DNA from: Ectocarpus siliculosus
Lineage: Eukaryota; Sar; Phaeophyceae; Ectocarpales; Ectocarpaceae
NCBI GenBank assembly: GCA_000310025.1
Contig: FN648236.1
Span: 1-64,000, forward strand
Direction: 5' to 3'
DNA length: 64,000 nucleotides
The notes below the pieces were generated by a model. It did no database searches and had not been told where the DNA came from. It saw nothing but the letters and a program-made list of their open reading frames with translations. The translations under genes were made by a program, and so were the position numbers. Shown here one piece after another: positions 1 to 49,387 of the stretch (its first letter is position 1; each line of letters begins with the position of its first letter).

Positions 1-894
1 AGCGGTGGTGGACCAAAATCGCATCACGACCAAAAACATCTTCAGCATGTGTCGTGAGTGTCTCCTCGAAACCACGAAACAGCCAACATCACCCAACACC
101 AAAAACAAGACCTGCATATTGTACTACAGTATATGCTGCTTCGCAAAAAGAAAGTAATGCCTATATACTTCATCGACACCATACTCATAATACCGCAGTA
201 GCGGTACTCCTACGAGATGGGTAACTAAGCAACACCGTCACAACGGGTTGTAAAACAATTGACGACGTTGTCGATGGGGTAAAGAAAAAGCACCTCCCTA
301 CGTGCATTGCACACCCATACCTGAGCAAAAAAACAGCTGAAAAAAACCTAACATGCAACTATTGTAGACTAAATAGTATCAACATTGTGCAGGCACCCGT
401 CATGCGAGGCAGTGCACGCTTCAGGGTTAATGAGCCGAGTCAAAAACTTGTCCGGACTTTCGGTCCTGCTTCAGAGGCATATTCGCGTCTCGTAAGACGT
501 GGCCTCGACTCAAAAAGGGGGGCCTCGAAACAGGCTAAATGGTTATTCCTAGACTACCAGAATGCAACGAACAGTTTCGCTTGATGAGTGGTACGTGGCA
601 ACGACGCCTGAATACCTCAAAACACTCCCTCCACAGGCAGCAACAATGCAACGAGGATCCGGCGAGACAATAGGTTGCAACGTAAACAAAAAGGAGACAC
701 TAGTTGCCCCCCGGTCGATGGGAATGCACTTGCGACCATCGCCCACTTACACGATCCCGCTGTTGTTGATGGAAAATGCCACCGCACAGGTGGTCGTTAA
801 AAAAATGCGCAGACATCCGCCCGGAATAGGACGAGATTGACGGTGAAGAAAAATGTGGCGCTCTACGTTTAGGTCTCCGATTCATACTCCCCCT
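1..894. other. Outer flank of left arm, no gene seen
   Basis: This is the 3' flank of the minus-strand beta-helix gene. It is homologous at roughly 90% to 27,396-28,275, with small indels, and shows only short reading frames. I see no independent gene. It presumably contains the 3' untranslated region of the gene ending at 895. Confidence 0.6.
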
Positions 895-3800
895 TCAGGC
901 AGTATCGTCGTCGTCGTTATCATCGTTATCGTCGTCGTGGTCGTCGTGGTCGTCGTGGTCGTGGTCGTCGTCGTCGTCGTCGTGGTCGTCGTCGTGGTCG
1001 TCGTCGTTATCGTCGTCGTTATCGTCGTCGTTGTCGTCGTTATGGTCGTCGTCGTCGTCCTCGTCGTCGTCGTTGTGGTCGTCGTCGGCTATAATGATAC
1101 ACGGGGCCTCGTTGGTGTCGTCACAGTATCTGCCGCTATCGTGCACCTCTGGTGGGCAGCAAGACTCAGCGCCGAGACCGTTCGAAGCGCCCGAAGCGTC
1201 GCATCCTGGACCTCCGCACTGGCCACACCCGAGCGAACAACAGATCTCGCCTCTGTGGTCGATGCCCTCGAGGCCATTGCTGCACGTACTCTCTGTTTTG
1301 AAACGGGCAAGTCCAATGAATTTCGGTTTTGTTTTGTGATGGTGAGTTCGAAATTTTGAGGTGCAGGCAGCACTGCCATCAAGATTTTCCCCGACGCATA
1401 TCCTTGCTCATGGCACATAGCCACTGTAAGCGGACAGGATGTTTGGGCTACCAGAATGCTATGGCGTTCACCTTCGTCATCGTCGTCCTCAGCATCACCC
1501 TCGTTGGTGTCGTCGTTGTCGTCGTCGTCGTCAGCATCGGGGGCACTGCCGTAGATGCATGGGGCTTCGCCGGTGTCGTCACAGTATTTGCCGCTAGAAC
1601 TGACCGGTTCTCTACAGCAAGAGTCAGCGCCAAGACCGTACGCGGCGCCAGAAGTGCTGCATCCCGTCCCTCCGCACTGGCCACACTCGAGCGGGCAGCA
1701 GACGACGCGGCCGTCGATGCCCTCAATGCCGTCGCGACACGTACTCTCTGTTTCTTGAAACGTACGGGTTGGAGATCGGGTCGTGCGGGCGCGAGAAGTA
1801 CGCGAAAAATGTTGGTGATAGTTGGAACGGAGTGTGCTCGTTTGTTGTTTTTTAGTGGCGCAGCAGGGCGACCAACCAAGCTTCTCAATAACACGTACGG
1901 GACCGCAGCCTACTACTTCATTTCGTGTTCATTTCGATGGACTTGTTGTGCTGCTATGTATTATTCCCCCAAACTCATGTTGCCCACTATACTGCTGTAG
2001 CTCAATAGCACGCTTTCCATACAATATGTTTTCATCCTTCGGCCATGCGGTGGGTGACAGTTCCCCTGCTGCTGTTCTATGCCAAGACGTCGCTGTCGTT
2101 GTCTCTTCTCCCGCATTATCAGCAGTCTTCCAAAATACTGGGACTTCCTAGTGGAACAGTCTGCCAATACTTCGCACAGCAAGCATGTTCTGCTTTCTCG
2201 TCATTGTTGGCGTCGGCCCAAGAACTACAGTAGTGTCGTTTCGGCTCCCCCTCACGTTTTCGAACCATCTGTCGGTTTTCCTGTGTGGAACACTCTCTCC
2301 CGCTACGAGTTGTCCCTGCTCTTGTGAATCATGTATGTTTTTCGGCGTGACTGCCCAACAGATAGCACGGCGACGCCAATAGGTCCAATGCTCGTGTACG
2401 CGCTCCTTTTCGATCGCTTAGATTTCTTGTACCCTGTATTGTTTCTGCACCGCCTTCTTCACGTCGCCCTTTCAGGGAGGCCTTCAAACGCGCCCCGCCG
2501 CCAGATGGCTATTTGTGTGTGCGTGTGGGCTACTTGCTGTGGATCATGATGGTTGGATACTTATCCCCACTCATACCCGAATTTTGGCTCCCCAACCCAG
2601 CGTACAACGCGGTCGATTTCCCCTAAGTATCGGTGCCGTTCGGTTTGGAATTTTGGGGCACATTGGGACTACAGTATCATTCTTGTAATGTCCCATACCA
2701 TTATGGCATACATTCTAACATACTGAGTGGTAGCGTACAGCAAGGGCAGGAGGATTGGTCTGTCTTCGGAAATACTCACCGGCTTCAGCCGTTGGCTCGG
2801 TCGTTGGCTCGGTCGTTGGCGCGATCGTTGCTTCAGCCGTTGGCTCGAGCGTTCCCGCAGGCGTTGCCTCGAGCGTTGCCGCAGGCGTTGGCGCGATCGT
2901 TGGCGCGATCGTTGCTTCAGACGTCGGGACGGTCGTTGCCGCGGGCGTTGGCTCGGTCGTTGGCTCGAGCGTTGCCGCTCGCGTTGGCGCGATTGTTGGC
3001 GCGATCGTTGCGTCAGCCGTTGGCTCGAGCGTTGCCGTAGGCGTTGCCTCGAGCGTTGCCGCAGGCGTTGGCGCGATTGTTGACTCGATCGTTGGCTCGG
3101 AGGATTCCTCGTTCATTGCCTCGGCAAATGCCTCGGTCGTTGCCTCGGGCGTTGGCTCAGGTGCCGGGGTCACCTGGGCACACGACAACGAAACGCGCTT
3201 GTTATGAGGGTTACTGTAGTCGTTGTTTTCCATGTAGTTCGTTTCCATCCTCACATCTGGAGTGTATCACTATGTGGGCGCACTCTGCATTACCTATTAT
3301 GCGCTACACTACTCCACGAATGTTGCCTCTTTGGCTGAAGAACTAAGGCCCGTGGTCGCGTCGGCCACGGATATATTGTGCGGCCCGCATGCCGCCGCCT
3401 TGCACCCATGAGGAGGGCTTCGCTCACACCCTGCCCCTAAGTGCACACGCACATGCATGCACGAACCGAACCTTTCCACGCCAGAGGGTGAATCGCCCAT
3501 TGCACGCCTCGGCGGTGTTTAACTTCCCTCCCGCGCATCTATCCATGCATGGTCGCCCGAATATCAAGTGTCGAGCCTACAATACAACAAGACCAAGCGG
3601 AGCCTATAATACAACTAGACCAAGCGGCTTCCAGTCCCAACAGAGCGGAACAACCAGAGATTACTGCTACCTGGTGCTGCGGGTACTTCGACTTCTATGT
3701 AAACGGCAAAATGCAAATGACAGCCGATTCGAAACGTTTGGTATCAGAACGCGCCAAGACCTTACTGGAGTTGTGATACCAAGCAGCACATCGGAGACAA

Positions 3801-6800
3801 TGGACGAGTCTCGCTACCCGAGCAAAGAACGAACGGCCCACACCTACATCTCGCGATCGAATGGACGGCTCCAGCAAGACAAGTAGATCGCACTACGCCT
3901 TGTCGCCATCGTATCTCGGTCTCTCTTTTGCTAGTGTTCTCTCTCGCTAGTGTATTCTATAAGAGAATCGAGCTCACCGATGCAGAGGTTGACCCAGGCG
4001 CCGATGAGGACGAAGAGTCACAGGGTATCAACGGGTCGTAGTAGTAGGCTCCTCCGGAATAGTTGTACTGCGTTCATGACGCCCAGTGCAAGGAGAGAGC
4101 GAGAAAGAGAGTGGGAGAGAGAGAGAGAGAGGAAGCGAGAGAGAGAAAGAGAGAGAGAGGAAGACGGAGCTCAGAGGAGTGGCAAAGGCGGCCGCGCTCC
4201 TGCTTGTTCTCTGAATCAATCATTATCGGACGTGGTTCAGCGGGGACTGACGCGGAACCGAGCTACATTCCTGCAACAGAGCCACTTGCCACTCCCTATT
4301 GTGTGCTCTTCTACTATGGAGACGGGTGTTGTGGGTCATGTTCAAAACATATGTCAGGTTTCGGTAGTAACCTTGGAGGCCAGAAAAGCGGCTCCTACCC
4401 CCATGATCTGGGTTTTTTCTAAGGAAGTATCCACCAAGTACTTGTGATCGATGGCCGTAACGCCCCCCGCCACCCTTGAGTATCGTACCCACCAGAACAG
4501 CAGGCCAGGGAAAATATCGGTCTCCAATCTAGGGCTCAACACTCACGTCGGCGTCATCATCGGTGTCAGGAACCTCGATGTCGTTGCCGCAGATCTGACC
4601 CTGGGGAGTAACCATGACCTTTATTCCGGAGGCCCGGCAGTTGACCATGGTGTTTTCGTATACCTGTTGCATGCGCGGACGGGCCGGATAGGTAGAGGGC
4701 CGGGGGGGCGGGAGGAGGGACGGGAGGCCGTGGTTCGCGTATGAGTTGGTTGAATCATCACTGACTGTTGTATGTGGACTCGCTCGACACCGTCTCATCT
4801 CTTCCAAGTCGATGCGTGGGAAGATGTTCCGGCTCGAAAACACTATCTATCCGAAATCGGCGACGAGGCGATGTCGCCCTCGGCGTTCAAGTTCCTGGGG
4901 GACCTGGGGAAGCCGTCGACAGGTAGGTGCGTGTCTGTGTAACGGTGCGAAATATTCAGCCTTTCAACCGAGGTAGGATGGGGGTCAAAGAAGTATCTGA
5001 CTCACGGTGAGAGCAGCGTCCTACTGTTGGACACCCACCACGTTGACGGCAGAAGTAAATATTCGGGTGAGATGAAACTTCCTCGGACGAACCTTCCTTG
5101 GTCCAGCCTTTGAATGTCACGAAAACAAGCGCTACCCGTGTGGGGGAAACCGCGGCACCTTTCCATCGCATACACTCAGAACTCTCGGTGTATGCCTGAG
5201 GTCACACCAGCACCTGGTTGTTGGCGCCGTACTCAATGCCGTCCACCGTGTGGCCTCCTAAACGGACACCCGCCCCGTCCGTGTCTTCGATGTGGTTGTA
5301 GCGGATGATGCTCCGGTCACCTCGGCTTCCGATGCCTGCCCACAAATGGCGATATTTGCTTTCGTTGTAGTTGCTCGAGTGGTATTCGCGATTGCTTCTG
5401 TGCCCCCGCAGAAGGTTGGTGCGAAGACGCATCTCAGGGGAAACGTCTTGCGCTATCGAAAAAGCCTACAGTTTGGGTACACACACTTTCGTGCTCCGGA
5501 AAACCTCGAAGTGTGCATGACATCACCGGGAGAAGACGAATTCCCATCACATGTTTTGCGTAAGCCGGATGCATCGTGTACAATGCTGCACGAGTAATCA
5601 AGACTTGTGACAACGTTGTTTCTCCTGTGGCGATTGGGGCAATCTTTAAGATGCGTCCCAGGTATGTGATAGACCGGGTCCAAGACTGTTACTCAATGTT
5701 TTCATACTCCAATCAATCAATGTCTCGCCGACTCGTTGTGTGAACAACCGGAGCTGTTTGATCTCTCTGTCCTCGCCTCTCCGACTCACCTCCGGACTCA
5801 GCGTCGTATTGCATGTACACCTCGTTGCCCTCGATCAGGGTTTCAACGGTTCCTTCTTTCACTTCAATGCCTTCGTTACCCTGATGGAAGTAGTACAGCG
5901 CAGTAGTGGCCACGGAGCGAACATGAGTTCGTGCGGACAAGGCGGACTTCTGGTAATCTGGTAACCGGCGAGGAGCGGCCGCAACTGCATAAAGTACACC
6001 GCCCTATTAGCAGATCGCAGAGAGTCTCACCTCACCCCCAATTCGCCAAGCATCAAACCACAACGGGCAATCGTTTTGCGGGAAACTTGCGCTTTGCGTC
6101 GTTGTCGGGCTTCGAGTCCGGCAACTAACAGGTTCCTGCCTTTTTCGATTCGATTCTAAACCTGTCTGTCCGTTTGAGATCACCAACCTCGTGTCAAATG
6201 CCATGAAGCTCGCGATAATTGTCGCAACATGACGCTGTGATGCTTGGTTCTGGCACGACGTATGACAAAGTGCAGCTCTAACCAACATATCATGCAGTGA
6301 TGTACGATGACGTTAATGCGCACATTTGTTTTCGTGGTAAGCATGATGACGAGGTTCGATTCTTCTTCCCTTACCTTTGTCCTGATGAAGTTGTCACGGA
6401 CTGTGATACCCTGGCACACGTCCGGCCCGTCACTCCAATTGTCACCGTCGTCCCACTGAGTGCTGGAGGTTCCGATATCTGCGTGTTGACCATCGAAACA
6501 TGTCAGAGGGGAGACAATAAACATGTCGAAGCACACACACACTGTACCATGATTTGGGTGTATTGTCCAACGTTTCTATGAGTGGCGAAAGTTGCCTACA
6601 CATTTCTCACTTCCGAAAGACGCCTGGCCCATGCGGGGGACCCAAGCACGAAGCGTACACTTTCGGCGTAGCCTCAGCAGGACATCGTTGACGCTCATTG
6701 CGGCAAGGTGCTTGACTAAAATCCGTAGAATCCGAACTGTTGGACGTTGTTAACGGCACCGTCATGCTTCAAACTGTGCGACAGTTCCTGTCATTGTTGA

Positions 6801-9800
6801 CTGCAACCGCACGCCTACCCCGGGAATAAATCACGCCAGAGTACTCTCGTTGTTTGGTCCCACTCACATACACCTTCCCCGTTCTTGCCCTCAGTGCCTT
6901 CTTCCCTTCAGGTGCGTGGAAGCCCGGGGGGGGAGGGAGCGGGAGGAAGGAGATGACACGGAGGATAAGGCCGAAAGGGTGGAGGGAAGAAGAATTGGAA
7001 CAGAACGTACCAGCGAGAGGTGCGGGCGTGACGCGCTACTGTGACTGCAACAGAGAATTTCGAAGCGGCCACTCTCTTTTCCACCCCGCACAACAAACTG
7101 TTTGACGGGTTCGCTTGCACCGGTTTTTTCTGCGCACCCCACCAAACTACAAAACAAACCACCCAGGCCCGCCACCGGTAAACGCGTAACGCGAGGTATT
7201 TCGGGAAAAATCGCTTGACATGTCAAGAACGCGCCGCTCTTCAAGTCGAATCAGGTCGAGCCTGGGTGCATTGGGGCTACTCGAACCTGAAGTCGTAGAT
7301 TCCTGGGCGCACGAAGACGGGAACGGGAGCGTCGGAAAGCAAGAGATGGGGTGGGGTGGAGGTTATTGTTTGGGTACTAGGGTTCGCCAGCCCTGGTGTC
7401 AGCGATGTGGAGCTTGTGCTAAGGCATTGAAAAAGGCTATGGCTGAAGCTTACCGCAGTCGGTGATAGTGTTGCCGTACACCTCGGCGTACGTCACGTGG
7501 TCTTGAGAGGAAAGATGGGCAGCGGCAGGAGCGGCCGCGTGTTTGGTGGAAGTAGAGCACGAACGCCGAAAGGAAAAATGGTTCGAGGTGTTAACAATAG
7601 TGATTCCAATTTGTGCCGCCTGCGCATGAGTTCACTCTAGACGCGGTCAGACTTTGTCCTCTGAGACGCAACTGGAGACTGCTTGAAGAACAGCTGGCTT
7701 CACGGAAACAAGGGAAATTTGCACGTAGCACGCCCTTGAAGCACTGCGTACGACCGAGCATCAGACACTCAAACACGCGACACAGCACGCTCACGTTTTC
7801 GAATGAACGCGGCAGTTAGCATCGAATCGTGCGAGAAGAAATTGACGGCAACGAATAGCTGGTCACCGCACTTCGCATGCGAGAGACGGACCCCGTGTGT
7901 GCGACGAGAACACTATTTGTTGCTTCTCCGCTTACCGCGTAAGCGGATGCACTCGCCACCGGCATTGGCGATCGCCATGTTACGAATTACCAGGCCGTCT
8001 ATGCCAGAAACATAGCCCCCATCCCTTTCGGTAGGCTCCCGCCCGCCTGGTTGACCGACGGAGGGAGTGGAAACAACGGTCAACATCCATGCGTTACAAC
8101 GAACTGGGTGAGTAGCGGTGGGAGGGGGAGTAGCGGCCTGAGCTTCCCCCGCACGCGTGGATAGCCACAGGGGCCATGCCAACGTTGACAGTCAAGACAA
8201 ATAAATGGCCAGACATCGGCGACGACGGGCCACTAGGGTTTACCATCAGCACGTTTCTCGTACAACGGACGCGAGGAACGGACCCCTCTGCACTTGTCCA
8301 GCCAAAGCTTTCCCGTTGCAAGCGTTTCCTTTGTAGTATTGTAACTTTGTGGTCTCGTCGTTGTGGAGGGTTGCGAACAACCTTGGGATGGGGCCCCGAG
8401 ACGATCTTGGCAACGGAAACAACAGTATCAACGAAACCTCTACAAAGGGAGCCGCTTACACCAAAGTAACGACGCCATGGTTGGGAAATCTCCTACCGGT
8501 GGCGTAGATTAGTATGTCGCGCCACAATTCCTTGATGGAATCGGAACCCGTACCGCGGTCTGGATCATCTTCCGCGTCTCCGTTCACTGTGAAGTCCTGG
8601 TTGGGGCGAGCGGACACGGCAAGAATTGTTCGTTTTACCAACAGCGTCTGATAGTTGGTTGTTCGCCACACGCATGTTCGAGTGATGATGCTCTTCACTC
8701 CTTGCTCGCGAATGCCTTTAGAGGCAGGCCTGATACTATGACAAGCGCCAAAGGGCACGACAACGCTCCAGACGAAAATACCATGCACCACACGCCCATG
8801 ACGTCGCCCATGTACTCGGCGACTCGATTGCTAGCATGCGACATCCAATAGGAATATTGCGACATAGAACAACTATATCCGCATGCCCGGTTGCGTGTGG
8901 CACCAAATGATTTGCATCGAAGCGGCGCTTCAGTTATCATGATTGCACTTCGACACCACAGGCCTCCTCCGTGTTAGCCTATCCTTTGGAGCTCTACGGT
9001 CCTCGATGAGCGATATGAATGCGCGGCTGCGTTTGGCCCACCAACAATATATACGCATTGCAGTATAGTCATGGCGTTTTCGCAGTGCATGCCTGCGCCG
9101 TAGCCGACGATATTCGCACCTCGATGATGTAGTAGTCGTGCTTGACTTCGAACACCCTGCTGCTAGTGCCATCGCCGCGAAGAACGACGTTGTCTCTGTC
9201 GTCCGTCCCCCCAGCCCCGCGGATAGTGATCGGCATGTCGGCCGTTCCATCGATCTACAGGGCAGCGACGATGAAGTGAGAGAATGAACCGAGATCAGGG
9301 CTTGGCCGCGAGAAGCGGCCGTCCAGCGCCATTCTCAAGAGACGCCATTGCTCGACAGGTTCGACGGCACAGTACTGTGTCAGGGTTGTCAACAGTGCAC
9401 GCCCAACATTTGTGGGCGCTCAGTGTTCTTGTTGGCGCTTGTTGACTCCCCGACGTGGTAAGGTGCGGCGTATGGGAGCACATGCTGCAGCCACTGCTCT
9501 AGCTGTCGAACAATCAATACTCGGTTCGCCGCTTACTTCAGTGTACTACTGTGAATAATGGTATCGCAACCGACGACAGTAGAACTCCCACTTCTGACTG
9601 GACGCGATGGCCTTTCGTAGATGCGGACAACCCTTTGTGCACATGCGAGGCCACACCGCCGTCCACCCACCGTTGTTTTGATATCTTCCCAGTAATCTCC
9701 GTGCCCGATCTCGATGACGTCACCAGGGTTGACCTCATCGAGGGCATCCTGAGGCAAGCATGTAGTGAGTGCAATGTGCTAATCAGTGCAGCGGTTCGCA

Positions 9801-11074
9801 CGTGGAAAACTTGAGTGGATGATTGAACTATCTGTACTTCTAAGTTCGAAACGGCATAGACTACTGTACATCTGACCTGCTGAACTAGTGGGGTCACGCA
9901 TTCTTCGTATATCTTGGCTCTACGCTTGATTGTTCCCTTTCTCAATCAAAGTGGTTCACACACGCACGTGAGTAATGATTCGGGCTTGAGTTCTACGGCG
10001 AAGATTGTGGTACCCTGCGAAACGCATTCCCAACCGGCGGGCCTTGATATCACACACGTGGCGGGGTTATGATCATGGCTCAGTCATGATCGGGATGATC
10101 GGGTCACGACTCAGTCATGACCCGATCATGGGTCTTAGCTCTGTCGGTGCGGGCATAACCCGCGCATGACTCGGTCATGACCCGTTCATGACATGATCAT
10201 CTCTCTCTGTCAAAGTGATGTTGACCCGGCAATGAAACAATCATGGCAGGATCATGAGACTGGATCATGATCTAGCATTCTCGCCAAATATTCGTGCGTA
10301 TCCTGTAGAAATATACCAACCACCTGCTGCCTACGTTTGATAAATTGTTGTGTTCCGAGTTCAGGCAAGCAACGGAACCATGAATGGCAGCAGAGGTAAG
10401 GTATGCATATGACGCTCCCTCTTGCTCAGTGCTGCCTAGGAGTGATAGCGAACGACTGGGAGAGAAAGGAAGGACAAGAAAGGAATCGGACTGAAACTGA
10501 ACCTCTAACCTGCACACAGTGGTCGAATATGCCCCACACTACATATATGACTCGGTCATGACCCGGTCACGAAGCTGGGGTCATGACCCAATGATGTCAC
10601 TCATTGGAGTTGGCATGGCCTGCGCCTTTACGGCGAAGCATTGGCACGCCGTCAGGGTTAATTATCCCAGATAAGCACGGTCCGAGTATCGAAAGAAAAC
10701 ATCGACGTAGTCTGAGTCTACTGTGTATCAAGCGACACGCACACACAGAGACTTGAACGAAGCTACAGCAGTACCGATTACTGCTGACTGCGCATAGATA
10801 TAGTGACGAGTTCCGCCGACAATCTCCGATCGTTGGTTGTGTCCACTCGACATTGGTGTTGAATTTCCACACCCTTGATCATGTTCATCCAGGAGCATCC
10901 AAGAACCGACGGAGGCCCAAACAGAAACCTATCGAGGCTCAAAAGGCGCTTCACACAAGACCACGTTGTCTGTACCTGAAATGCGGTGCCTCCCGGAGAG
11001 ATCGATATGGTGGCGCACTGACCGCAGAACGTTGAAAAGCCCAGGAAGAGCAGTGGCAGCAGCAGCGGCGACAT
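895..11074 (-). CDS. Secreted parallel beta-helix protein with two 10-Cys domains and an Asp/His-rich tail (left copy)
   Basis: Sixteen exons, 5' to 3': 11074-10976, 9748-9671, 9254-9120, 8596-8497, 8046-7936, 7501-7454, 7302-7287, 6905-6868, 6478-6375, 5880-5790, 5335-5214, 4663-4547, 4067-3978, 3173-2780, 1747-1472, 1292-895. All junctions are GT-AG and in phase, giving 738 residues. Exon 1 is a signal peptide (MSPLLLPLLFLG, cleavage near residue 20). Residues about 34-383 carry beta-helix rungs (DGLVIRNMAIANAGGECIRL, GNEGIEVKEGTVETLIEGNE, DGAGVRLGGHTVDGIEYG). A 131-residue Pro/Thr/Ala/Glu linker follows, then two cysteine domains and an Asp tail containing 8 His. The PGDVIE...GTADMPITIRG start resembles PL6-type alginate lyase/chondroitinase B beta-helices, and the lysine in IEVKEGT sits where that family has its catalytic lysine. 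That is a tentative family comparison. The protein is inferred to be secreted and to act on or bind wall or matrix polysaccharide. Catalytic activity is unproven. Confidence 0.88.
4096..4165. repeat. (GA)n microsatellite in intron 12 (left); (CT)n counterpart at 24,122-24,186
   Basis: An imperfect GA-rich tract lies just upstream of the exon 13 acceptor of the minus-strand gene, where it acts as that gene's polypyrimidine tract. The right copy has the reverse-complement tract in the same place, with different unit counts. Confidence 0.85.
10050..10270. repeat. Dense array of TCATGA-centred motifs in intron 1 (left copy)
   Basis: In about 210 bp there are a dozen or more near-copies of gtcatgacccgatcatg-type sequence, built around the palindromes TCATGA and ATGATCAT. 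They lie within intron 1 of the minus-strand beta-helix gene, with one more cluster at 10,545-10,600. The right arm has counterparts at 14,530-14,580 and 17,930-18,150. Function is unknown. It could be an old palindromic repeat or a cluster of binding sites. Confidence 0.75.
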
Positions 11075-11441
11075 TGGATCCCTGGGTCCCAGCAACACGT
11101 TATCGCAGTGTATTCGTCGTGTGCGCAATAGTGTGGTGCTAGCGATACCACAAGGGTTTAGCACGTTCAACAGTAAAAGTTTGAAAATATAGGCTACTGT
11201 GTGCTGGCGTTTGTAATGAACGAACGTGCAGAGGAGTGAGTGTGAGGTAGTGTTTGGCCCGGCCAAGTTTTCTAGTTGTCGGGTGGATGTACTGTTGTTC
11301 TTTCGGGCGGATGTTGGCTGATTGTGTCTTCGTCCCCTTGAAATTTCCTGACCACACGCATGGAGACCCCACGTTGTCTCGCTGGCAACATGCGTTCTGC
11401 GTTCTTGTTTGCCAACTTCAAAAATGGACTAGATATGTGAA

Positions 11442-11472
<31 letters not shown>
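11442..11472. repeat. (GTT)n microsatellite
   Basis: About ten uninterrupted GTT units mark the inner limit of left-arm homology. Confidence 0.9.
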
Positions 11473-11473
<1 letters not shown>

Positions 11474-11756
11474 TCTTCACATTAAACTCGTGTCAGTTGC
11501 TAATCCCAAAATCTAGCATGTAGACATGCACAGAGTAGACCATTCCCACAACAGGCGTTCCACTCAAGAGAACAAGGAACCGAGTCCATCTACATGTACC
11601 ACGAGTTACAGTAGTTCGGAACAGGCACATTGGCAGCGGGCTGTCGAACAGATGACCCTACGAATGCACCAAATACAGTTGCATGTACATAACTAGACCC
11701 AATGTAGAACAAGTCATCATGAGTATCTAGACCATCCGTATGATCCCCCAATTGAC

Positions 11757-11860
11757 TTGTCTCTTGTCTCGTCGGTGCCCCGGCCTGGTCTGTGACCTCT
11801 GAAGTTCAACCGTAAAAAACGGTTCAGACCGCCAACGGAAAGAGGCGTACCGAAAGTTCA
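11757..11860 (+). repeat. Short direct repeat in the palindrome centre, copy 1
   Basis: This shares the order gtcggtgcc, gacctctgaagt, caac, aacggttcaga, ccgcca and cggaaa with 13,540-13,660, in the same orientation. The copies therefore do not belong to the inverted duplication. It is probably a small dispersed repeat of unknown family. Confidence 0.6.
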
Positions 11861-13539: not shown

Positions 13540-13660
13540 TTGGCTTCTCTAGTCGGTGCCCTGGTCTGACTGTCTGACCTCTCTGTGTAATGATGACCTC
13601 TGAAGTCAACTGTTCGAAACGGTTCAGACTGCCACAGCGGAAACCTCTACCGGAACTTGA
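13540..13660 (+). repeat. Short direct repeat in the palindrome centre, copy 2
   Basis: Partner of 11,757-11,860, with about 20 extra bases after ctgacctct. It sits just outside the inner limit of right-arm homology. Confidence 0.6.
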
Positions 13661-17000: not shown

Positions 17001-20000
17001 CGTTGGCAGACAATCTCCACTGATCAGTAAACTTCTTCGCCGCGGTAGGGGGGGGGGGGGGAATCGTGCATGCGGTAATCGTTAAACCATTGACCTCCCA
17101 TCCCTACAAAACCCGGACGGTAGGGGGGGGGGGGGGGGGGGGGGGGGGGNNNNNNNNNNNNNNNNNNNNNNNNNNNNNNNNNNNNNNNNNNNNNNNNNNN
17201 NNNNNNNNNNNNNNNNNNNNNNNNNNNNNNNNNNNNNNNNNNNNNNNNNNNNNNNNNNNNNNNNNNNNNNNNNNNNNNNNNNNNNNNNNNNNNNNNNNNN
17301 NNNNNNNNNNNNNNNNNNNNNNNNNNNNNNNNNNNNNNNNNNNNNNNNNNNNNNNNNNNNNNNNNNNNNNNNNNNNNNNNNNNNNNNNNNNNNNNNNNNN
17401 NNNNNNNNNNNNNNNNNNNNNNNNNNNNNNNNNNNNNNNNNNNNNNNNNNNNNNNNNNNNNNNNNNNNNNNNNNNNNNNNNNNNNNNNNNNNNNNNNNNN
17501 NNNNNNNNNNNNNNNNNNNNNNNNNNNNNNNNNNNNNNNNNNNNNNNNNNNNNNNNNNNNNNNNNNNNNNNNNNNNNNNNNNNNNNNNNNNNNNNNNNNN
17601 NNNNNNNNNNNGTATTTCCGCGGCGCCCCCCGCGCCCCCACACCGCCGCGGGCGGCGCTATATCCACCAGCCACTGCCGCTGTACTGGTGTGTTGTTTTC
17701 TTCGCCAGAACTAAGAAGATATAATAAAGCAAGATAATCAGCAGGATGCAACAGCCCAAAGGAATAAGAAATCGGTTCAAAGACAATAGGCCAACTTCGT
17801 TCGGCTAATCCTTCTGCCCAACATAAGATATTGAGGCTGGACCCGATTGTGACGTTTCTTGTCTCCGGGCACGTTCTGTATTCCCGCCCAGAAGATATCG
17901 TAGTAGTCCAACTATCATGGGTCAAGACCAGATCACGACTTCGTATTTTCTCTCATTAGCAGAAAAATTGACCAGACGGTCATGCTCCAGTCATGATTGT
18001 ATCACTACCCACAGTCGCCATCGTGTCATGACCGGATCGAGGCGAGTGGACTAAGACCGAGACAGGCATGATCATGATCGGGTCATGACCCGGTCATGCC
18101 CGGGTTATGAATGAATCGTGATCCGATCATCCCAATCATGACATAAAGTCATGATCAGTAAACCACTGATGTCCAAGCCCGACGTTTGGTAATCATTTTG
18201 GCAAGGTACCGCAATCTTCGCCGCAGACCTCAAGACCGAAACTTGCAAACCATATCACCACTCACGTGCAGCTCGATCGTGGCGCAAACGATGGCGAATA
18301 ACGTGCGTGTTTGAACCACTTTGATTGAGAAAGGAAACAGTCAAGCGTGTAACCTTTGCGAAGAATGTTTGTGATACTGCTGTACTGCACCTATACTAAC
18401 CTGTTGACCCAACCAACCCTCTACGTGCTGGCCCCAGGATGCCCTCGATGAGGTCAACCCTGGTGACGTCATCGAGCTGGGGCACGGAGATTACTGGGAA
18501 GACCTTAAGACAACGGTGGGTGGACTGCGGTGTGACCTCGCATGTGCGCTCAGGGTTGTCCCGCATCTATAAGTACAAAGAGTCACCACATATATAAAGC
18601 CCAGCCAGAAGGAAAATGACCGTTCTACTGTAGTACACATAACTCGGATGTTAGGCGCAACCATATGCAAACGCACTTTCTTCGCGGTGTACCATACGCA
18701 GACCACGAATCATTCACTACCATGTCCCCGGAGCCAACACTCAGTGCGGTCGGGTACAAAATGTTGGTATGTATCACGCCCACCCAAGATTTATTCTACA
18801 GCTGCAGCAGGTGCTCCAATACGTCACAGTTGTATGCTGACATACCAAAGGGCTAGAGCGCCAACCAGAATATTGAGCGGCTGTGAAATATCGATGGGCG
18901 TGCACTTTAAACAACCCTGACACGGTACTGTACCGTAGAACCTGTCCAGTAATGGCGTCTCTTGAGACTAGCGTTGGACTATTTCTCGCGGCCAAGCCTT
19001 GATGTCGGTTCATTCTCTCACTTCATCGTCGCCGCTCTGTAGATCGATGGAACGGCCGACATGCCAATCACTATCCGCGGGGCTGGTGGGACGGACGACA
19101 GAGACAACGTCGTTCTTCGCGGCGATGGCACTAGCAGCAGGGTCTTCGAAGTCAAGCACGACTACTACATCATCGAGGTGCGAATATCGTCGGCTACGGC
19201 GCAGGCATGCACTGCGAAAACGCCATGACTATACTGCAATGCGTATATATATATGTTGGTGGGCCATACGCAGCAGCGCATTCATATCTTTCATCGAGAG
19301 CCAAAGAACTCCAAAGGATAGGCCAACATCGAGGAGGCCTGTGGTGGCGAAGTGCAATCATGATAACCGAAGCGCCGCTCCGATGCGAATCATTGGTACC
19401 ATCATAGCCGGGCATGCGGATATTGTTGCTCTACGTCGCAATATTCCTATTGGATGTCGCATGCTAGCGATCGAGTCGCCGAGTACATGGGCGATGTCGT
19501 GGGCATGTGGTGCATGGCCTTTCCGTCTGCAGCGTTGTCGTGGCCTTTGACGCTTGTCATAGTATCAGGCCTGCCTCTAAAGGCATTCGCGAGCAAGGAA
19601 TGAAGAGCATCATCACTCAACCATGCGTGAGGCGAACAACCAAGCATAAGACGCGTTGGTAATACGAATAATAATTGCCGTGTCCGCTCGCCCCCGAACA
19701 GGACTTCACAGTGAACGGAGACGCGGAAGATGATCCAGACCGCGGTTCGGGCTCCGATTCCATCAAGGAATTGTGGCGCGACATACTAATCTACGCCACC
19801 GGTAGGAGACCCGACCAACCATGGCGTCGTTGTTTTGGTGTAGGCGGCCTCCTTTGTGATGTGGTGTTATTGGTGTTGTTGTTTCCGTTGCCAAGATCGT
19901 TTCGGGGCCCCATTCCAAGGTTGTTCGCAACCCTCCACAACGACGAGACCACAAAGTTACAATACCAGGAAGGACACGCTTGCAACGGGAAAGCTATGAC

Positions 20001-23000
20001 TGGACAAGTACAGAGGGGTCCGTTCCTCGCGTCCGTTGTACGAGAAACGTGCTGATGGTAGAACCTAATGGCCCGTGGTCGCCGACATCTGCCCATCTTA
20101 TTGTTTTGACTGTCAACGTTGGCATGGCCCCTGCGGCTATTCACGCGTGCGGCGGAAGCTCAGGCTGCTACTCCCCCTCCCACCGCTACCCACCCACTTC
20201 GTTGTAACGCATAGATGTTGACCGTTGTTTTCACTGCCCGCCTCGGTTACCCAGGCGGGCGGGAGCCTACCGAAAGGGATGGAGGCTATGTTTCTGGCAT
20301 AGACGGCCTGGTAATTCGCAACATGGCGATTGCCAATGCCGGTGGCGAGTGCATCCGCTTGCGCGGTAAGCGGAGAAGCGACAAATAGCGTTCTCGTGTC
20401 ATATACGGCATCCCTCTCTCGCATGCGAAATATAGTTTGTCGTTGCCGTCAGTTTCTTCTCAATGCTAACTGCCGCGTTCATTCGAAAACGTGAGCGGGC
20501 TGTTTCGCGTGTTTGAGTGTCTGATGCTCGGTCGTACGTAGTGCTTCAAGGTCGTGCTACGTGCAATTTCCCTTGTCTCCGTGAAGCCAGCTGTTCTTCA
20601 AGCAGTCTCCAGTTGCGTCTCAGAGGACAAAGTCTGACCGCGTCTAGAGTGAACTCATGCGCAGGCGGCACAAATTGGAATCACTATTGTTAACACCTCG
20701 AACCATTTTCCTTTCGGCGTTCGTGCTCTACTTCCACCAAACACGCGGCCGCTCCTGCCGCTGCCCATCTTTCCTCTCAAGACCACGTGACGTACGCCGA
20801 GGTGTACGGCAACACTATCACCGACTGCGGTAAGCTTCAGCCATAGCCTTTTTCAATGCCTTAGCACAAGCTCCACCCTATCGACACATCGCTGACACCA
20901 GAGCTGGCGAACCTTAGTACCCAAACAATAACCTCCACCCCACCCCATCTCTTGCTTTCCGACGCTTCCGTTCCCGTCTTCGTGCGCCCAGGAATCTACG
21001 ACTTCAGGTTCGAGTAGCCCCAATGCACCCAGGCTCGACCTGATTCGACTTGAAGAGCGGCGCGTTCTTGACATGTCAAGCGATTTTTCCCGAAATACCT
21101 CGCGTTACGCGTTTACCGGTGGCGGGCCTGGGTGATTTGTTTTGTAGTTTGGTGGGGTGCGCAGAAAAAACCGGTGCAAGCGAACCCGTCAAACAGTTTG
21201 TTGTGCGGGGTGGAAAAGAGAATGGCCGCTTCGAAAATTCTCTGTTGCAGTCACAGTAGCGCGTCACGCCCGCACCTCTCGTTGGTACGTTCTGTTCCAA
21301 TTCTTCTTCCCTCCACCCTTTCGGCCTTATCCTCCTTGTCATCTCCTTCCTCCCGCTCCCTCCCCCCCCGGGCTTCCACCCACCTGAAGGGAAGAAGGCA
21401 CTGAGGGGAAGAACGGGGAAGGTGTATGTGAGTGGGACCAAACAACGAGAGTACTCTGGCGTGATTGATTCCCGGGGTAGGCGTGCGGTTGCAGTCAACA
21501 ATGACAGGAACTGTCGCACAGTTTGAAGCATGACGGTGCCGTTAACAATGTCCAACAGTTCGGATTCTACGGATTTTACTCAAGCACCTTGCCGCAATGA
21601 GCGTCAACGATGTCCTACTGAGGCTACGCCGAAAGTATACGCTTCATGCTTGGGTCCCCCGCATGAGCCAGGCGCCTTTCAGAAGTGAGAAATGTGTAGG
21701 CAACTTTCACCACTCATAGAAACGTTGGATAATACACCCAAATCATGTGTGTGCTTCGACGCGTTTATTGTCTCCCCTCTGACATGTTTCGATGGTCAAC
21801 GCGCAGATATCGGAACCTCCAGCACTCAGTGGGACGACGGTGACAATTGGAGTGACGGGCCGGACGTGTGCCAGGGTATCACAGTCCATGACAACTTCAT
21901 CAGGACAAAGGTCAGAGAAGAAGAATCGAACCTCGTCACCATGTTTACCACGGAAACAAATGTGCGCATTAACGTCATGGTAAATCACCGCAGAACATTT
22001 AGTTTGGAACTGAACTTTCTCATACGCTGTGCCGGAACCAAACATCACAGCGTCATGTTGCGACGATTATCGCGAGCTTCATGGCAGTTGACACGAGGTT
22101 GGTGATCTCAAACGGACAGACAGGTTTAGAATCGAATCGAAAATGGCAGGAAATTGTTAGTTGCCGGGCTCGAAGCCCGACCACGACGCAGAGCGCAAGT
22201 TTCCCGCAAAACGATTGCCCGTTGTGGTTTGATGCTTGGCGAATTGAGGGTGAGGTGAGATTCTCTGCGATCTGCTATTAGGGCGGTGTACTTTATGCAG
22301 TTGCGGCCGCTCCTCGCCGGTTACCAGATTACCAGAAGTCCGCCTTGTCCGCACGAACTCATGTTCGGTCCGTGGCCGCTACTGCACTGTACTACTTCCA
22401 TCAGGGTAACGAAGGCATTGAAGTGAAAGAAGGAACCGTTGAAACCCTGATCGAGGGCAACGAGGTGTACATGCAGTACGACGCTGAGTCCGGAGGTGAG
22501 TCAGAGAGGCGAGTACAGAGAGATCAAACAGCTCCGGTTGTTCACACAACGAGTTGGCGAGACATTGATTGATTGGAATATGAAAACATTGAGTAACAGT
22601 CTTGGACCTGGTCTATCACATACCTGGGACGCATCTTAAAGATTGCCCCAATCGCCACAGGAGAAACAACGTTGTCACAAGTCTTGATTACTCGTGCAGC
22701 ATTTTACACGATGCATCCGGCTTACGCAAAGCATGTGATGGGAATTCGTCTTCTCCGGGTGGTGTCATGCACACTGCGAAGTTTTCCGGAGCACGAAAGT
22801 GTGTGTACCCAAACTGTAGGCTTTTTCGATAGCGCAAGACGTTTCCCCTGAGATGCGTCTTCGCACCAACCTTCTGCGGGGGCACAGAAGCAATCGCGAA
22901 TACCACTCGAGCAACTACAACGAAAGCAAATATCGCCATTTGTGGGCAGGCATCGGAAGCCGAGGTGACCGGAGCATCATCCGCTACAACCACATCGAAG

Positions 23001-26000
23001 ACACGGACGGGGCGGGTGTCCGTTTAGGAGGCCACACGGTGGACGGCATTGAGTACGGCGCCAACAACCAGGTGCTGGTGTGACCTCAGGCATACACCGA
23101 CAGTTCTGAGTGTATGCGATGGAAAGGTGCCGCGGTTTCCCCCACACGGGTAGCGCTTGTTTTCGTGACATTCAAAGGCTGGGCCAAGGAAGGTTCGTCC
23201 GAGGAAGTTTCATCTCACCCGAATATTTACTTCTGTCGTCAACGTGGTGGGTGTCCAACAGTAGGACGCTGCTCTCACCGTGAGTCAGATACTTCTTTGA
23301 CCCCCATCCTACCTCGGTTGAAAGGCTGAATATTTCGCACCGTTACACAGACACGCACCTACCTGTCGACGGCTTCCCCAGGTCCCCCAGGAACTTGAAC
23401 GCCGAGGGCGACATCGCCTCGTCGCCGATTTCGAATAGATGGTGTTTTCGAGCCGGAACATCTTCCCACGCATCGACTTGGAAGAGATGAGACGGTGTCG
23501 AGCAAGTCCACATACAACAGTCAGTGATGATTCAACCAACTCATACGCGAACCACGGCCTCCCGTCCCTCCTCCCGCCCCCCCGGCCCTCTACCTATCCG
23601 GCCCGTCCGCGCATGCAACAGGTATACGAAAACACCATGGTCAACTGCCGGGCCTCCGGAATAAAGGTCATGGTTACTCCCCAGGGTCAGATCTGCGGCA
23701 ACGACATCGAGGTTCCTGACACCGATGATGACGCCGACGTGAGTGTTGAGCCCTAGGTTGGAGACCGATATTTTCCCTGGCCTGCTGTTCTGGTGGGTAC
23801 GATACTCAAGGGTGGCGGGGGGCGTTACGGCCATCGATCACAAGTACTTGGTGGATACTTCCTTAGAAAAAAACCCAGATCATGGGGGTAGGAGCCGCTT
23901 TTCTGGCCTCCAAGGTTACTACCGAAACCTGACATATGTTTTGAACATGACCCACAACACCCGTCTCCATAGTAGAAGAGCACACAATAGGAGTGGCAAG
24001 TGGCTCTGTTGCAGGAATGTAGCTCGGTGCCGCGTCAGTCCCCGCTGAACCACGTCCGATAATGATTGATTCAGAGAACAAGCAGGAGCGCGGCCGCCTT
24101 TGCCACTCCTCTGAGCTCCGTCTTCCTCTCTCTCTCTTTCTCCCTCTCGCTTCCTCTCTCTCTCTCTCTCCCACTCTCTTTCTCGCTCTCTCCTTGCACT
24201 GGGCGTTATAAACGCAGTACAACTATTCCGGAGGAGCCTACTACTACGACCCGCTGATACCCTGTGACTCTTCGTCCTCATCGGCGCCTGGGTCAACCTC
24301 TGCATCGGTGAGATCGAAGCTCTTCTAGAATACACTAGCGAGAGAGAACACTAGCAAAAGAGAGACCGAGATACGATGGCGACAAAGCGTAGTGCGATCT
24401 ACTTGTCTTGCTGGAGCCGTCCATTCGATCGCGAGATGTAGGTATGGGCCGTTCGTTCTTTGCTCGGGTAGCGAGACTCGTCCATTGTCTCCGATGTGCT
24501 GCTTGGTATCACAACTCCAGTAAGGTCTTGGCGCGTTCTGATACCAAACGTTTCGAATCGGCTGTCATTTGCATTTTGCCGTTTACATAGAAGTCGAAGT
24601 ACCCGCAGCACCAGGTAGCAGTAATCTCTGGTTGTTCCGCTCTGTTGGGACTGGAAGCCGCTTGGTCTAGTTGTATTATAGGCTCCGCTTGGTCTTGTTG
24701 TATTGTAGGCTCGACACTTGATATTCGGGCGACCATGCATGGATAGATGCGCGGGAGGGAAGTTAAACACCGCCGAGGCGTGCAATGGGCGATTCACCCT
24801 CTGGCGTGGAAAGGTTCGGTTCGTGCATGCATGTGCGTGTGCACTTAGGGGCAGGATGTGAGCGAAGCCCTCCTCATGGGTGCAAGGCGGCGGCATGCGA
24901 GCCGCACAATATATCCGTGGCCGACGCGACCACGGGCCTTAGTTCTTCAGCCAAAGAGGCAACATTCGTGGAGTAGTGTAGCGCATAATAAGTAATGCAG
25001 AGTGCGCCCCATAGTGATACACTCCAGATGTGAGGATGGAAACGAACTACATGGAAAACAACGACTACAGTAACCCTCATAACAAGCGCGTTTCGTTGTC
25101 GTGTGCCCAGGTGACCCCGGCACCTGAGCCAACGCCCGAGGCAACGACCGAGGCATTTGCCGAGGCAATGAACGAGGAATCCTCCGAGCCAACGATCGAG
25201 TCAACAATCGCGCCAACGCCTGCGGCAACGCTCGAGGCAACGCCTACGGCAACGCTCGAGCCAACGGCTGACGCAACGATCGCGCCAACAATCGCGCCAA
25301 CGCCTGCTGCAACGCTCGAGCCAACGACCGAGCCAACGCCCGCGGCAACGACCGTCCCGACGTCTGAAGCAACGATCGCGCCAACGATCGCGCCAACGCC
25401 TGCGGCAACGCTCGAGGCAACGCCTGCGAGAACGCTCGAGCCAACGGCTGAAGCAACGATCGCGCCAACGACCGAGCCAACGACCGAACCAACGGCTGAA
25501 GCCGGTGAGTATTTCCGAAGACAGACCAATCCTCCTGCCCTTGCTGTACGCTACCACTCAGTATGTTAGAATGTATGCCATAATGGAATGGGACATTACA
25601 AGAATGATACTGTAGTCCCAATGTGCCCCAAAATTAAAACCAGAACGGCACCACTATTTAGGGTGAATCGACCCCGTTGTACCCTGGGTTGGGGAGCCAA
25701 ACTTCGAATATGAGTGGGGATAAGTATCCAACCATCATGATCCACAATAAGTAACCCACACGAACACACAAATAGCCATCTGGCGGCGGCGCACGTTTGA
25801 AGGTCTCCCTGGAAGGGCGACGTGAAGAAGGCGGTGGAGAAACACTACAGGGTACAAGAAATCTAAGCGATCGAAAAGGAACGCGTAAACGAGCATTGGA
25901 CCTATTGGCGTCGCCGTGCTATCTACTGGGCAGTCACGCCGAAAAACATACATGATTCACAAGAGCAGGGACAACTCGTAGCGGGAGAGAGTGTTCCACA

Positions 26001-27297
26001 CAGGAAAACCGACAGATGGTTCGAACACGTGAGGGGGAGCCGAAACGACACTAGTTCTTGGCCGACGCCAACAATGACGAGAAAGCAGAACATGCTTGCT
26101 GTGCGAAGTATTGGCAGACTGTTCCACTAGGAAGTCCCAGTACTTCTTCCAAAATGAAAGAAGACTGCTGATAATGCGGGAGAAGAGACAACGACAGCGA
26201 CGTCTTGGCATAGAACAGCAGCAGGGGAACTGTCACCCACCGCATGGCCGAAGGATGAAAACATATTGTATGGAAAGCGTGCTATTGAGCTACAGCAGTA
26301 TAGTGGGCAACATGAGTTTGGGGGAATAATACATAGCAGCACAACAAGTCCATCGAAATGAACACGAAATGAAGTAGTAGGCTGCGGTCCCGTACGTGTT
26401 ATTGAGAAGCTTGGTTGGTCGCCCTGCTGCGCCACTAAAAAACAACAAACGAGCACACTCCGTTCCAACTATCACCAACATTTTTCGCGTACTTCTCGCG
26501 CCCGCACGACCCGATCTCCAACCCGTACGTTTCAAGAAACAGAGAGTACGTGTCGCGACGGCATTGAGGGCATCGACGGCCGCGTCGTCTGCTGCCCGCT
26601 CGAGTGTGGCCAGTGCGGAGGGACGGGATGCAGCACTTCTGGCGCCGCGTACGGTCTTGGCGCTGACTCTTGCTGTAGAGAACCGGTCAGTTCTAGCGGC
26701 AAATACTGTGACGACACCGGCGAAGCCCCATGCATCTACGGCAGTGCCCCCGATGCTGACGACGACGACGACGACAACGTCGACACCAACGAGGGTGATG
26801 CTGAGGACGACGATAACGAAGGTGAACGCCATAGCAGTCTGGTAGCCCAAGCATCCTGCCCGCTTACAGTGGCTATGTGCCATGAGCAAGGATATGCGTC
26901 GGAGAAAATCTTGATAGCAGTGCTGCCTGCACCTCAAAATTTCGAACTCACCATCACAAAACAAAACCGAAATTCATTGGACTTGTCCGTTTCAAAACAG
27001 AGAGTATGTGCAGTAATGGCCTCGAGGGCATCGACCACAGAGGCGAGATCTGTTGTTCGCTCGGGTGTGGCCAGTGCGGAGGTCCAGGATGCGACGCTTC
27101 TGGCGCTTCGAACGGTCTTGGCGCTGAGTCTTGCTGCCCACCAGAGGTGCACGATAGCGGCAGATACTGTGACGACACCAACGAGGCCCCGTGTATCATT
27201 ATAGCCGACGACGACCACAACGACGACGATAACGACGACAACGACGACGATAACGACGACGACAACGACGACGATAACGACGACAACGACGACGATA

Positions 27298-27361
<64 letters not shown>

Positions 27362-27395
27362 CGATAACGACGATAACGACGACGATACTGCCTGA
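14075..27395 (+). CDS. Secreted parallel beta-helix protein with two 10-Cys domains and an Asp/Asn-rich tail (right copy)
   Basis: Sixteen exons: 14075-14173, 18438-18515, 19043-19177, 19702-19801, 20255-20365, 20782-20829, 20992-21007, 21390-21427, 21807-21910, 22405-22495, 22950-23071, 23622-23738, 24218-24307, 25111-25504, 26543-26821, 27001-27395. Every junction is GT-AG and phase-compatible, giving 738 residues, the same length as the inverted copy. The signal peptide begins MSSLLLPLLFLG. The beta-helix spans about 34-383, the linker 384-514, Cys domain 1 515-607, Cys domain 2 608-672, and the acidic tail 677-738. Each Cys domain follows C-x(12-13)-CC-x3-C-x2-C-x4-C-x13-CC-x10-C-x7-C. 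Differences from the left copy include DVIEL/DLK versus DVIEI/DIK in exon 2, VHD versus VRD in exon 9, and a nearly His-free tail. Intron 1 is 4.26 kb, against 1.23 kb in the left copy, and contains a LINE piece and the assembly gap. No disabling change is seen. Confidence 0.88.
14840..15769. other. Right-arm-specific intron sequence, no gene seen
   Basis: Homology to the left arm stops near 14.83 kb. This stretch has no left counterpart and only short reading frames. It contains a perfect 20-bp palindrome at 15,575-15,594 with CACGTG at its centre, and several purine-rich GA stretches. It may be part of the same insertion event as the LINE or a separate insertion of unrecognised type. Confidence 0.5.
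15770..17046 (-). mobile_element. 5'-truncated LINE (non-LTR retrotransposon), reverse-transcriptase C-terminal part
   Basis: On the minus strand 17013-16597 encodes the end of a LINE reverse transcriptase (KKSAVMV, then YTYLGVEI with W and H nearby, then VIVPPLEYARKAL). It reads in the same frame, through one in-frame stop at 16597, into 16539-15814 (LTWQYRMCGMGEERLPRIVW, then a Cys-rich tail CDCGFECED). The element begins abruptly with the codons for AAKKFTDQW near 17,046 and ends in a C-run (G-run on the plus strand) near 15,770, as expected of a 5'-truncated copy inserted by target-primed reverse transcription. It lies in intron 1 of the right beta-helix gene and is absent from the left copy. 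Confidence 0.88.
17046..17149 (-). mobile_element. Second, very short LINE 3'-end copy abutting the assembly gap
   Basis: A G-run is followed by aatcgtgcatgcggtaatcg, accattgacctc and acaaaacccggacgg. This is the same terminal sequence that ends the LINE at 15.77 kb. It sits directly against the truncated 5' end of that LINE and is followed by a long G-run into the gap. Confidence 0.7.
17150..17611. other. Assembly gap (462 N)
   Basis: Unknown bases preceded by a long G-run. The gap lies in intron 1 of the right beta-helix gene. It separates exon 1 from exons 2-16 of that copy and limits confidence in the order and orientation of the two halves. Confidence 0.99.
17920..18150. repeat. Dense array of TCATGA-centred motifs in intron 1 (right copy)
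   Basis: This is the counterpart of 10,050-10,270. Repeats such as gatcgggtcatgacccggtc alternate with diverged spacers. The array lies just upstream of exon 2 of the plus-strand beta-helix gene and next to the point where arm homology resumes after the 3 kb insertion. Confidence 0.72.
20992..21007 (+). other. 16-nt micro-exon 7 of the right beta-helix gene
   Basis: The exon is 16 bases flanked by ...gcgcccag and gttcgag. Its phases (1 in, 2 out) join exon 6 (TITDCG) to exon 8 (EEGTEGKNGEGVY) to read CGIYDFREEG. Without it the frame breaks. The left copy has the identical exon at 7302-7287. Confidence 0.75.
26543..27195 (+). other. Duplicated 10-cysteine domain exons (exons 15 and 16)
   Basis: Exons 15 (26543-26821) and 16 (27001-27395) both start after AAACAG, in phase 1, with the residues E-S-T/M-C. 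They encode the same cysteine pattern and shared blocks (CGQCGG, GLGA, YCDDT, EAPCI). They look like a tandem exon duplication. Two such domains end each beta-helix protein in this window. I associate this cysteine pattern with secreted stramenopile proteins, but its fold is unknown to me. Confidence 0.8.
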
Positions 27396-28275
27396 AGGGG
27401 GAGTATGAATCGGAGACCTAAACGTAGAGCGCCACATTTTTCTTCACCGTCAATCTCGTCCTATTCCGGACGGATGTCTGCACATTTTTTAACGACCACT
27501 GTGCGGTGGCATTTTCCATCAAAAGCAACAGGATCGTTTAAGTGGGCGATGCTCGCAAGTGCATTCCCATCGACCGGGGGGCAACTAGTGTCTCCGTTTT
27601 GCTTACGTTGCAACCTATTGTCTCGCCAGATCATCCTTGTAGTGTTGCTGCCTTTGGAGGGAGTGTTTTGAGGTATTCAGGGGTCGTTGCCGCGTACCAC
27701 TCATCAAGCGAAACTGTTCGTTGCACTCTGGTAGTATTTAGCCTGTTTCGAGGCCCCACCTTTTGAGTCGAGGCCACGTCTTACGAGACGTGAATATGCC
27801 TCTGAAGCAGGACCGAAAGTCCGGACAAGTTTTGGACTCGGCTCATTAACCCTGAAGCGTGCACTGCCTCGCATGACGGGTGCCTGCACAATGTTGATAC
27901 TATTTAGTCTACAATAGTTGTACGCAAGTTAGGTTTTTTTCAGCTGTTTTTTTGCTCAGGTATGGGTGGGTGTGCAATGCACGGAGGGGGGTGTTTTTTT
28001 TACCCCATCGACAACGTCGCCAATCATTTCTCAACCCGTTGTGATGGTGTTGCTTAGTTACCCATCTCGTAGGAGTACCGCTAATGTGGTATTATGAGTA
28101 TGGTTTCGATGAAGTATATAGGCATTACTTTCTTTTTGCGAAGCAGCATATTGTACAATGCAGGTCTTGTTTTTGGTGTCGGGTGCTTTGGTGTCTGTTT
28201 TTCGCGGTTTCGAGGAGACACTCACGACACATGCGGAAGTTGTTTTTGGTCATGATGCGATTTTGGTCTACACCG
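27396..28275. other. 3' flank of right beta-helix gene, no other gene seen
   Basis: This is the counterpart of 1-894 in inverted orientation, with small indels. It holds the presumed 3' untranslated region. I see nothing else in it. Confidence 0.6.

Positions 28276-49352: not shown

Positions 49353-49387
<35 letters not shown>

Follow-up and report, generated by a model that had tools for sequence, protein, structure and literature searches.

Two copies of a 16-exon gene, L and R, lie in opposite orientation in the first 28 kb of the window (the whole analysed stretch of 64,000 nucleotides of Ectocarpus siliculosus DNA, bases 1-64000 of the 380,134-bp contig C47), and this inverted pair is part of a small gene family homogenised in patches, not an isolated giant palindrome. 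A third complete copy, X, was found on contig C358. We consider it likely that the copies of this small paralog cluster are old and that ectopic gene conversion later acted among their gene bodies.

Inverted arms, gene models and the sequence gap

Self-comparison of the window with blastn gave one dominant inverted match, in which 1-9439 pairs with 28277-18857 at 95.02% identity over 9,497 columns (E=0). Further inward, the inverted likeness falls into pieces of 77-94% identity (blastn), some in 9618-10195 that pair with 18569-18067 and others in 10444-11420 that pair with 14690-13724, and the centre between the innermost blocks, 11421-13723, has the size of roughly 2.3 kb given by the first-pass annotation. 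The non-coding sequence of the older left part diverges by 13-26% from R and X. Base 1 is the start of the contig and not the end of the arm, because flank homology runs to about 28887 in a copy on C358. The right arm is longer than the left, since intron 1 of R (4.26 kb vs 1.23 kb in L) holds additional repeats and an N gap. Coding ends before the arm end in both copies (27395 in R, 895 in L), and a gene end coinciding with the arm end was ruled out by the stop codon of R at 27393-27395 (Table 1).

Table 1. Positions of the arms, the two gene copies and associated features in the window
Feature	Left or central position	Right position	Strand (left/right)	Remarks
Arm, high-identity part	1..9439	18857..28277	-/+	self blastn; left part cut at contig start, 95.0% to 28277-18857
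Arm, older part	9440..11420	13724..18856	-/+	left: most of intron 2, exon 2, intron 1, exon 1, ~350 bp upstream; right: ~3 kb additional sequence inside intron 1
Gene (L left, R right)	895..11074	14075..27395	-/+	16 exons, 742 aa each; AG/GT borders, open frame
Exon 1	11074-10976	14075-14173	-/+	signal-like N-terminus
Exon 2	9748-9671	18438-18515	-/+
Exon 3	9254-9120	19043-19177	-/+
Exon 4	8596-8497	19702-19801	-/+
Exon 5	8046-7936	20255-20365	-/+
Exon 6	7501-7454	20782-20829	-/+
Exon 7	7302-7281	20992-21013	-/+	micro-exon
Exon 8	6905-6868	21390-21427	-/+	micro-exon
Exon 9	6478-6375	21807-21910	-/+
Exon 10	5880-5790	22405-22495	-/+
Exon 11	5335-5208	22950-23077	-/+
Exon 12	4663-4547	23622-23738	-/+
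Exon 13	4067-3978	24218-24307	-/+
Exon 14	2780..3173	25111..25504	-/+	minisatellite linker, Pro/Thr/Glu/Ala-rich
Exon 15	1747-1472	26543-26821	-/+
Exon 16	1292-895	27001-27395	-/+	ends in stop (R: 27393-27395)
Coding minisatellite of tail	905..1087	27206..27385	-/+	Asp-rich in L, Asp/Asn-rich in R
Block upstream of L, ~300 bp	11552..11855			inverted relative to its match upstream of X (C358:9625-9931)
Candidate head-to-head junction interval	12632..13595			blastn detection limits
High-copy repeat, R intron 1		15775..17044		at least 40 other matches at 92-94% (40 of 3008 candidates scored)
N gap		17150..17611		after 27 G (17123-17149), before dispersed repeat
Dispersed repeat, ~270 bp, R intron 1		17612-17882		directly beyond N gap

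Fourteen exons with AG/GT borders were recognised in L, R and X (the 14-exon model), and the addition of two micro-exons brought the number to 16. Earlier schemes with 25 and then 13-23 exons were dropped after inspection of splice sites and phases and the finding of the micro-exons. All three complete copies have 16 exons with one stop each, the same phases and the same exon borders, those of the micro-exons included. L and R, with GT-AG introns and equal total length, both look intact; the exon-by-exon inverted correspondence of two apparently intact copies, claimed by the first-pass annotation, was confirmed by self blastn and by these common borders, phases and stops. L and R have 742 codons each and X has 711, being shorter by 84 nt in the linker exon (310 nt, against 394 nt in the two others) and slightly in the tail. 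The total of 738 codons first proposed corresponds to an alternative 26-nt micro-exon at 21406-21431, which gives 738 aa in both L and R; the equality of length holds, but 742 is preferred, because the peptide GEGVYIGTSSTQ resulting from the 38-nt micro-exon matches GETIYLGTSSNQ in the continuous frame of a paralog on C16.

Over the first 540 residues, 530 are identical between the L and R proteins (14-exon model). For exons 2-11 of the same model, dN/dS is 0.0058/0.0616 (~0.09) for L-R, from 4.5 non-synonymous and 13.5 synonymous changes, and 0.05 for L-X, from 1 and 6, the changes being few in either pair. Judging from the L-R ratio, L and R are under purifying selection, which supports the view of two intact divergent copies.

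The gap-free stretch 1-17149 contains the whole of L, the two promoters and R exon 1, and exons 2-16 of R lie beyond the gap. The original caution that only the inner inverted part is held on one contig was therefore right, as this stretch stops before exon 2 of R. Beyond the gap, the sequence re-enters intron 1 of R 826 bp before exon 2, and the remaining exons follow on the expected strand. Among the matches listed, where exon 1 of L is also missing, no further exon 1 was present on C47. The worry that the gap might join unrelated contigs is answered in part, since the flanking repeats lie within a single intron, and the gene parts to either side complement each other and share a strand. For this reason a fusion of unrelated contigs was dropped as an explanation, and the same arrangement suggests that exon 1 of R belongs with exons 2-16. 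By eye, the repeat at 15775-17044 may be a truncated LINE. The head-to-head join is expected within the candidate interval of Table 1, because L matches X up to 12631 and R matches family sequence up to 13596. A second N gap in the window, at 57034-57133, has long C homopolymers near both sides and looks like a sequencing stop.

An assembly artefact, with the wrong paralog placed across the gap or with mixed reads, would produce false identical tracts or a partly false inversion, and read mixing in the draft is the main rival to conversion. The N gap sits between repeats, the first bases of both C47 and C358 fall within the repeated unit, and just 10 bp of C358 follow the stop of X; moreover, the assembly is a gapped draft (189.5 Mb, 492 contigs, several N runs) in which read mixing could yield an identical L-X tract. 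Against this stand the gap-free stretch with the whole of L, the two promoters and R exon 1 in inverted orientation, the return into the same intron with the remaining exons correctly oriented, and the differences of R from L and X, which occur before as well as after the gap. We regard such an artefact as unlikely.

Further copies of the gene in the assembly

Contigs were searched for copies with a preliminary protein extended by more of the C-terminal part, and only the best candidates were scored, so the counts are lower bounds. On C358 (20,378 bp), X is complete, with exon 1 at 10355 and the stop ending at 20368. A 3' half-copy, Y, precedes X in the same orientation and starts at the first base of the contig. 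Y has no 5' half of its own among the matches listed, and the missing half was found only as L. Since L in turn lacks the 3' flank, this is the geometry of overlapping contig ends, and it is quite likely that Y is L sequenced twice and the two are one gene. The 3' flank is consistent with this, having 0 substitutions in 894 positions between L and Y (with one single-base indel) vs 81 in 876 between L and R.

The alternative, that L and Y are separate genes and that contig ends truncate two of four near-identical copies, appears rather doubtful. The 18 listed differences over 5.3 kb would suit two recent copies: five are substitutions outside repeats, within ~0.7 kb near the C358 end, four are single-base indels, three of which fall in homopolymer runs, and nine entries lie in minisatellites, while the linker of Y (311 nt) is out of frame through a length change relative to L. 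However, the missing 5' half of Y and the missing 3' flank of L are each supplied by the other, the flank is free of substitutions, and exon 7 was found at at least three near-identical places vs at least four for exon 9 (among the matches listed). If Y and L are indeed one gene, the order would be X, L and then R inverted, with X in the same orientation as L; in window orientation, X and L would read leftward and R rightward.

An allelic origin from one diploid locus is very improbable, whether for the arms or for C358 and C47. It was dropped because L and R run in opposite directions on the same scaffold and intron divergence between them reaches 26%. Published accounts of Ectocarpus sp. 7 describe references derived from haploid individuals and a near-gapless V5 assembly with 27 chromosomes and five unplaced scaffolds (PMC11541908, PMC12477816). 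The present genome, presumably from such a haploid strain, is not V5, as it has 492 contigs. A type III polyketide synthase fragment on its contig C15 agrees at 91 of 91 residues with PDB 4B0N, a structure that a review attributes to Ectocarpus siliculosus (PMC6274091), which places the genome in Ectocarpus.

C8 carries older paralogs, one at ~1.737-1.754 Mb and another at ~1.776-1.789 Mb, whose alignable segments are 72-87% identical to the window; a 5,000-N gap (C8:1783422-1788421) takes out the middle of the latter, and an exon-2 piece lies near 1.799 Mb. Among the matches listed, more beta-helix matches were found on C12, C16, C26 and C192 and, at lower strength, on C96 and C111; matches to the Cys-rich module occurred at many further places, again a lower bound. 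The relative at C16:4489427-4491986 has its beta-helix in long frames with few introns and a different C-terminal part, and is useful for the study of intron gain or loss in this family. A 428-bp exon-2 piece at C67:19951-20378, 97.7% identical to X, ends near the onset of high L-X identity (C358:11981 and 11990, respectively); no other exon match was found within 10 kb around it, and it is taken as an orphan fragment.

Outside the gene, the dispersed sequence at 41963-42366 of the window has two further matches, at 82% and 87%, close to the paralogs on C8. Another element of ~1.8 kb, at 50966-52770, has perfect 29-nt terminal inverted repeats and further inverted repeats inside both ends, and looks like a DNA transposon; its ORF at 51128-51904 gave a weak helix-turn-helix match (E 3.6e-4) below the cut-off. 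It would lie inside pieces that by eye resemble an AAA ATPase gene (48444-53656), where the ORFs 48444-49265 and 53012-53653 had no Pfam match at E up to 0.01.

Mosaic divergence and probable gene conversion

By segment, the arms diverge by 0 to 26%. In the 14-exon model, L-R divergence of introns 3 to 13 is 9.4, 11.3, 5.3, 2.4, 7.3, 2.4, 1.1, 1.0, 1.1, 3.2 and 3.4%, respectively, a heterogeneity with chi2 171 and p 1e-31 when sites are treated as independent. Intron 2 differs by 26%, although it is rich in indels and the value ranges over 20-26% with the alignment. In 300-column windows (14-exon numbering), L-R divergence is 5-10% across exons 3-5, falls to 1-2% near exon 6, climbs to 3-8% near exon 7 and is mostly 0.3-3% across exons 8-12, with 8.7% in one intron 12 window; past this peak the values are 0-2%, rising to 3-15% toward and beyond the 3' end. 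The longest identical L-R run has 613 columns vs a maximum of 327 in 2000 random placements of the differences.

Between L and X the pattern is sharper. Divergence by intron (14-exon model) is 20.5% in intron 2, 6.4% in intron 3, then 2.0 and 0.9%, 0 for introns 6-11, 0.1% and 4.5% (intron 13), and an identical run of 4,582 columns extends from L 7644, vs a maximum of 698 in 2000 random placements. Of the 311 sites that vary over R 19043-27200, 250 place L with X, 38 place L with R and 21 place R with X, and two differ in all; the longest unbroken run of sites with L equal to X, 113, was reached in none of 10000 shuffles (sites treated as independent). The bin 19000-19499 reverses the order, with 24 sites for L-R, 19 for L-X and 10 for R-X. 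At the 3' side, the tail minisatellite differs at 40 of 189 positions between L and X, where the alignment is uncertain, and the non-repeat part of the last exon at 1 of 200 (9 of 379 with intron 13). Because divergence outside the tail minisatellite is so mild, the L-X tract ends far less sharply on the 3' side than on the 5' side.

Upstream of these tracts, all three pairs are diverged: the 350 bp before the start differ by 16-19%, exon 1 at 7-8 of 99 positions, and the 5' part of intron 1 by 13-26%. Exon 2 of L differs from R at 6 of 78 positions and from X at 1 of 78.

Plain duplication without conversion, with selection or mutation-rate variation along the gene making divergence uneven, is highly unlikely. 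Exons do mostly diverge less than the adjoining introns. Yet the L-R introns alone vary about tenfold, so coding constraint is no explanation for the patchiness and was dropped as its cause, and none of the 2000 random placements gave identical runs as long as those of L-X and L-R. Conversion predicts just this pattern, an old 5' end joined to a younger body, and identical tracts adjoin diverged sequence between paralogs, introns included, as expected of ectopic conversion; we infer that conversion caused the mosaic. The window would then begin within a small paralog cluster whose genes encode a beta-helix protein that is probably secreted. Its copies would be old, as their 5' non-coding divergence suggests, and stretches of gene body would later have been copied among cluster members by ectopic gene conversion, the copying between L and X being recent and clean and that between R and the L/X lineage older and piecemeal, with promoters and exon 1 staying outside the tracts. 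The earlier remark that inverted copies recombine and convert is supported by this mosaic. A length of 4.6 kb is long for a single conversion event, and the L-X run could possibly reflect other recent segmental copying.

Large gene palindromes of the sex-chromosome type have inverted arms over 8 kb around a small spacer, and the arms are uniformly 97% or more identical. The present arms reach that size, with 9.4 kb at high identity and a 2.3 kb spacer, but lack the uniform near-identity, at 95.0% overall. The inverted arms of the "giant palindrome" first described are thus real, while the term overstates them: the likeness is patchy, there is another near-identical complete copy, and the cleanest homogenised tract is that of L and X. 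Mammalian sex chromosomes are described as carrying gene-bearing palindromes (PMC6790999). L and R share with these a gene in each inverted arm, a small spacer and, probably, inter-arm conversion, and differ from them in their diverged inner parts and in that the best homogenised partner, X, lies on another contig.

The encoded protein and evolution of the cluster

The protein consists of a signal-like N-terminus (by eye), a beta-helix, a linker rich in Pro, Thr, Glu and Ala, two Cys-rich modules and an Asp-rich tail. Both modules carry a CGQCGG-x-GC motif, with an acidic stretch between them. With the corrected R model, the Pfam right-handed beta-helix family PF13229 scored 34.5 bits, above the cut-off of 25.9, and PF05048 scored 29.2 bits, above its own low cut-off. 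The preliminary protein, which contained intronic residues between exons 6 and 7 and mixed L and R letters there, gave Pfam and PDB results in agreement with these. The NCBIfam score comes from this preliminary protein, which reached 21.7 bits for the NosD copper-maturation protein (TIGR04247), below the cut-off of 300, and its Cys-rich part had no Pfam match at E up to 1. The sole solved relatives by sequence were the AlyGC entries 5gkd and 5gkq, which we take to be an alginate lyase of family PL6; the best stretch is short, 51 residues (query 17-67, E about 9e-5), and other stretches are weak. Compared with this short beta-helix match, the present protein has the additional linker, Cys-rich modules and acidic tail. 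Mannuronan C5-epimerases carry the motif YG(F/I)DPH(D/E), which by eye is absent from the 14-exon-model proteins. The protein is probably secreted, judging from its N-terminus, and its likely secretion, its fold and the host together suggest a putative role in the wall, perhaps on alginate.

Clusters of paralogs are known to evolve in concert by ectopic gene conversion. L, R and X share with such clusters several intact copies in mixed orientation, patchy identity and diverged flanks; they differ in that the tracts leave out the promoter, exon 1 and intron 2, and in belonging to a brown alga. Among the papers listed on gene conversion or palindromes in Ectocarpus, no title or abstract opening dealt with this locus, which at that level says little about what is in print. 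Patchy homogenisation of gene families is a known kind of evolution, of which L, R and X look like another case. Tentatively, conversion among direct and inverted copies might repeatedly reset the core (exons 6-13 of the 14-exon model), with promoters, the signal-peptide exon, the repeat-encoded linker and the acidic tail free to diverge; one core protein would then exist in versions that differ in their control and their tails. Because promoter and exon 1 differ, transcripts of L, R and X can be told apart. Such clusters risk being counted double in draft assemblies, as with L and Y, and the locus offers a compact, testable case of apparent concerted evolution in a brown alga.
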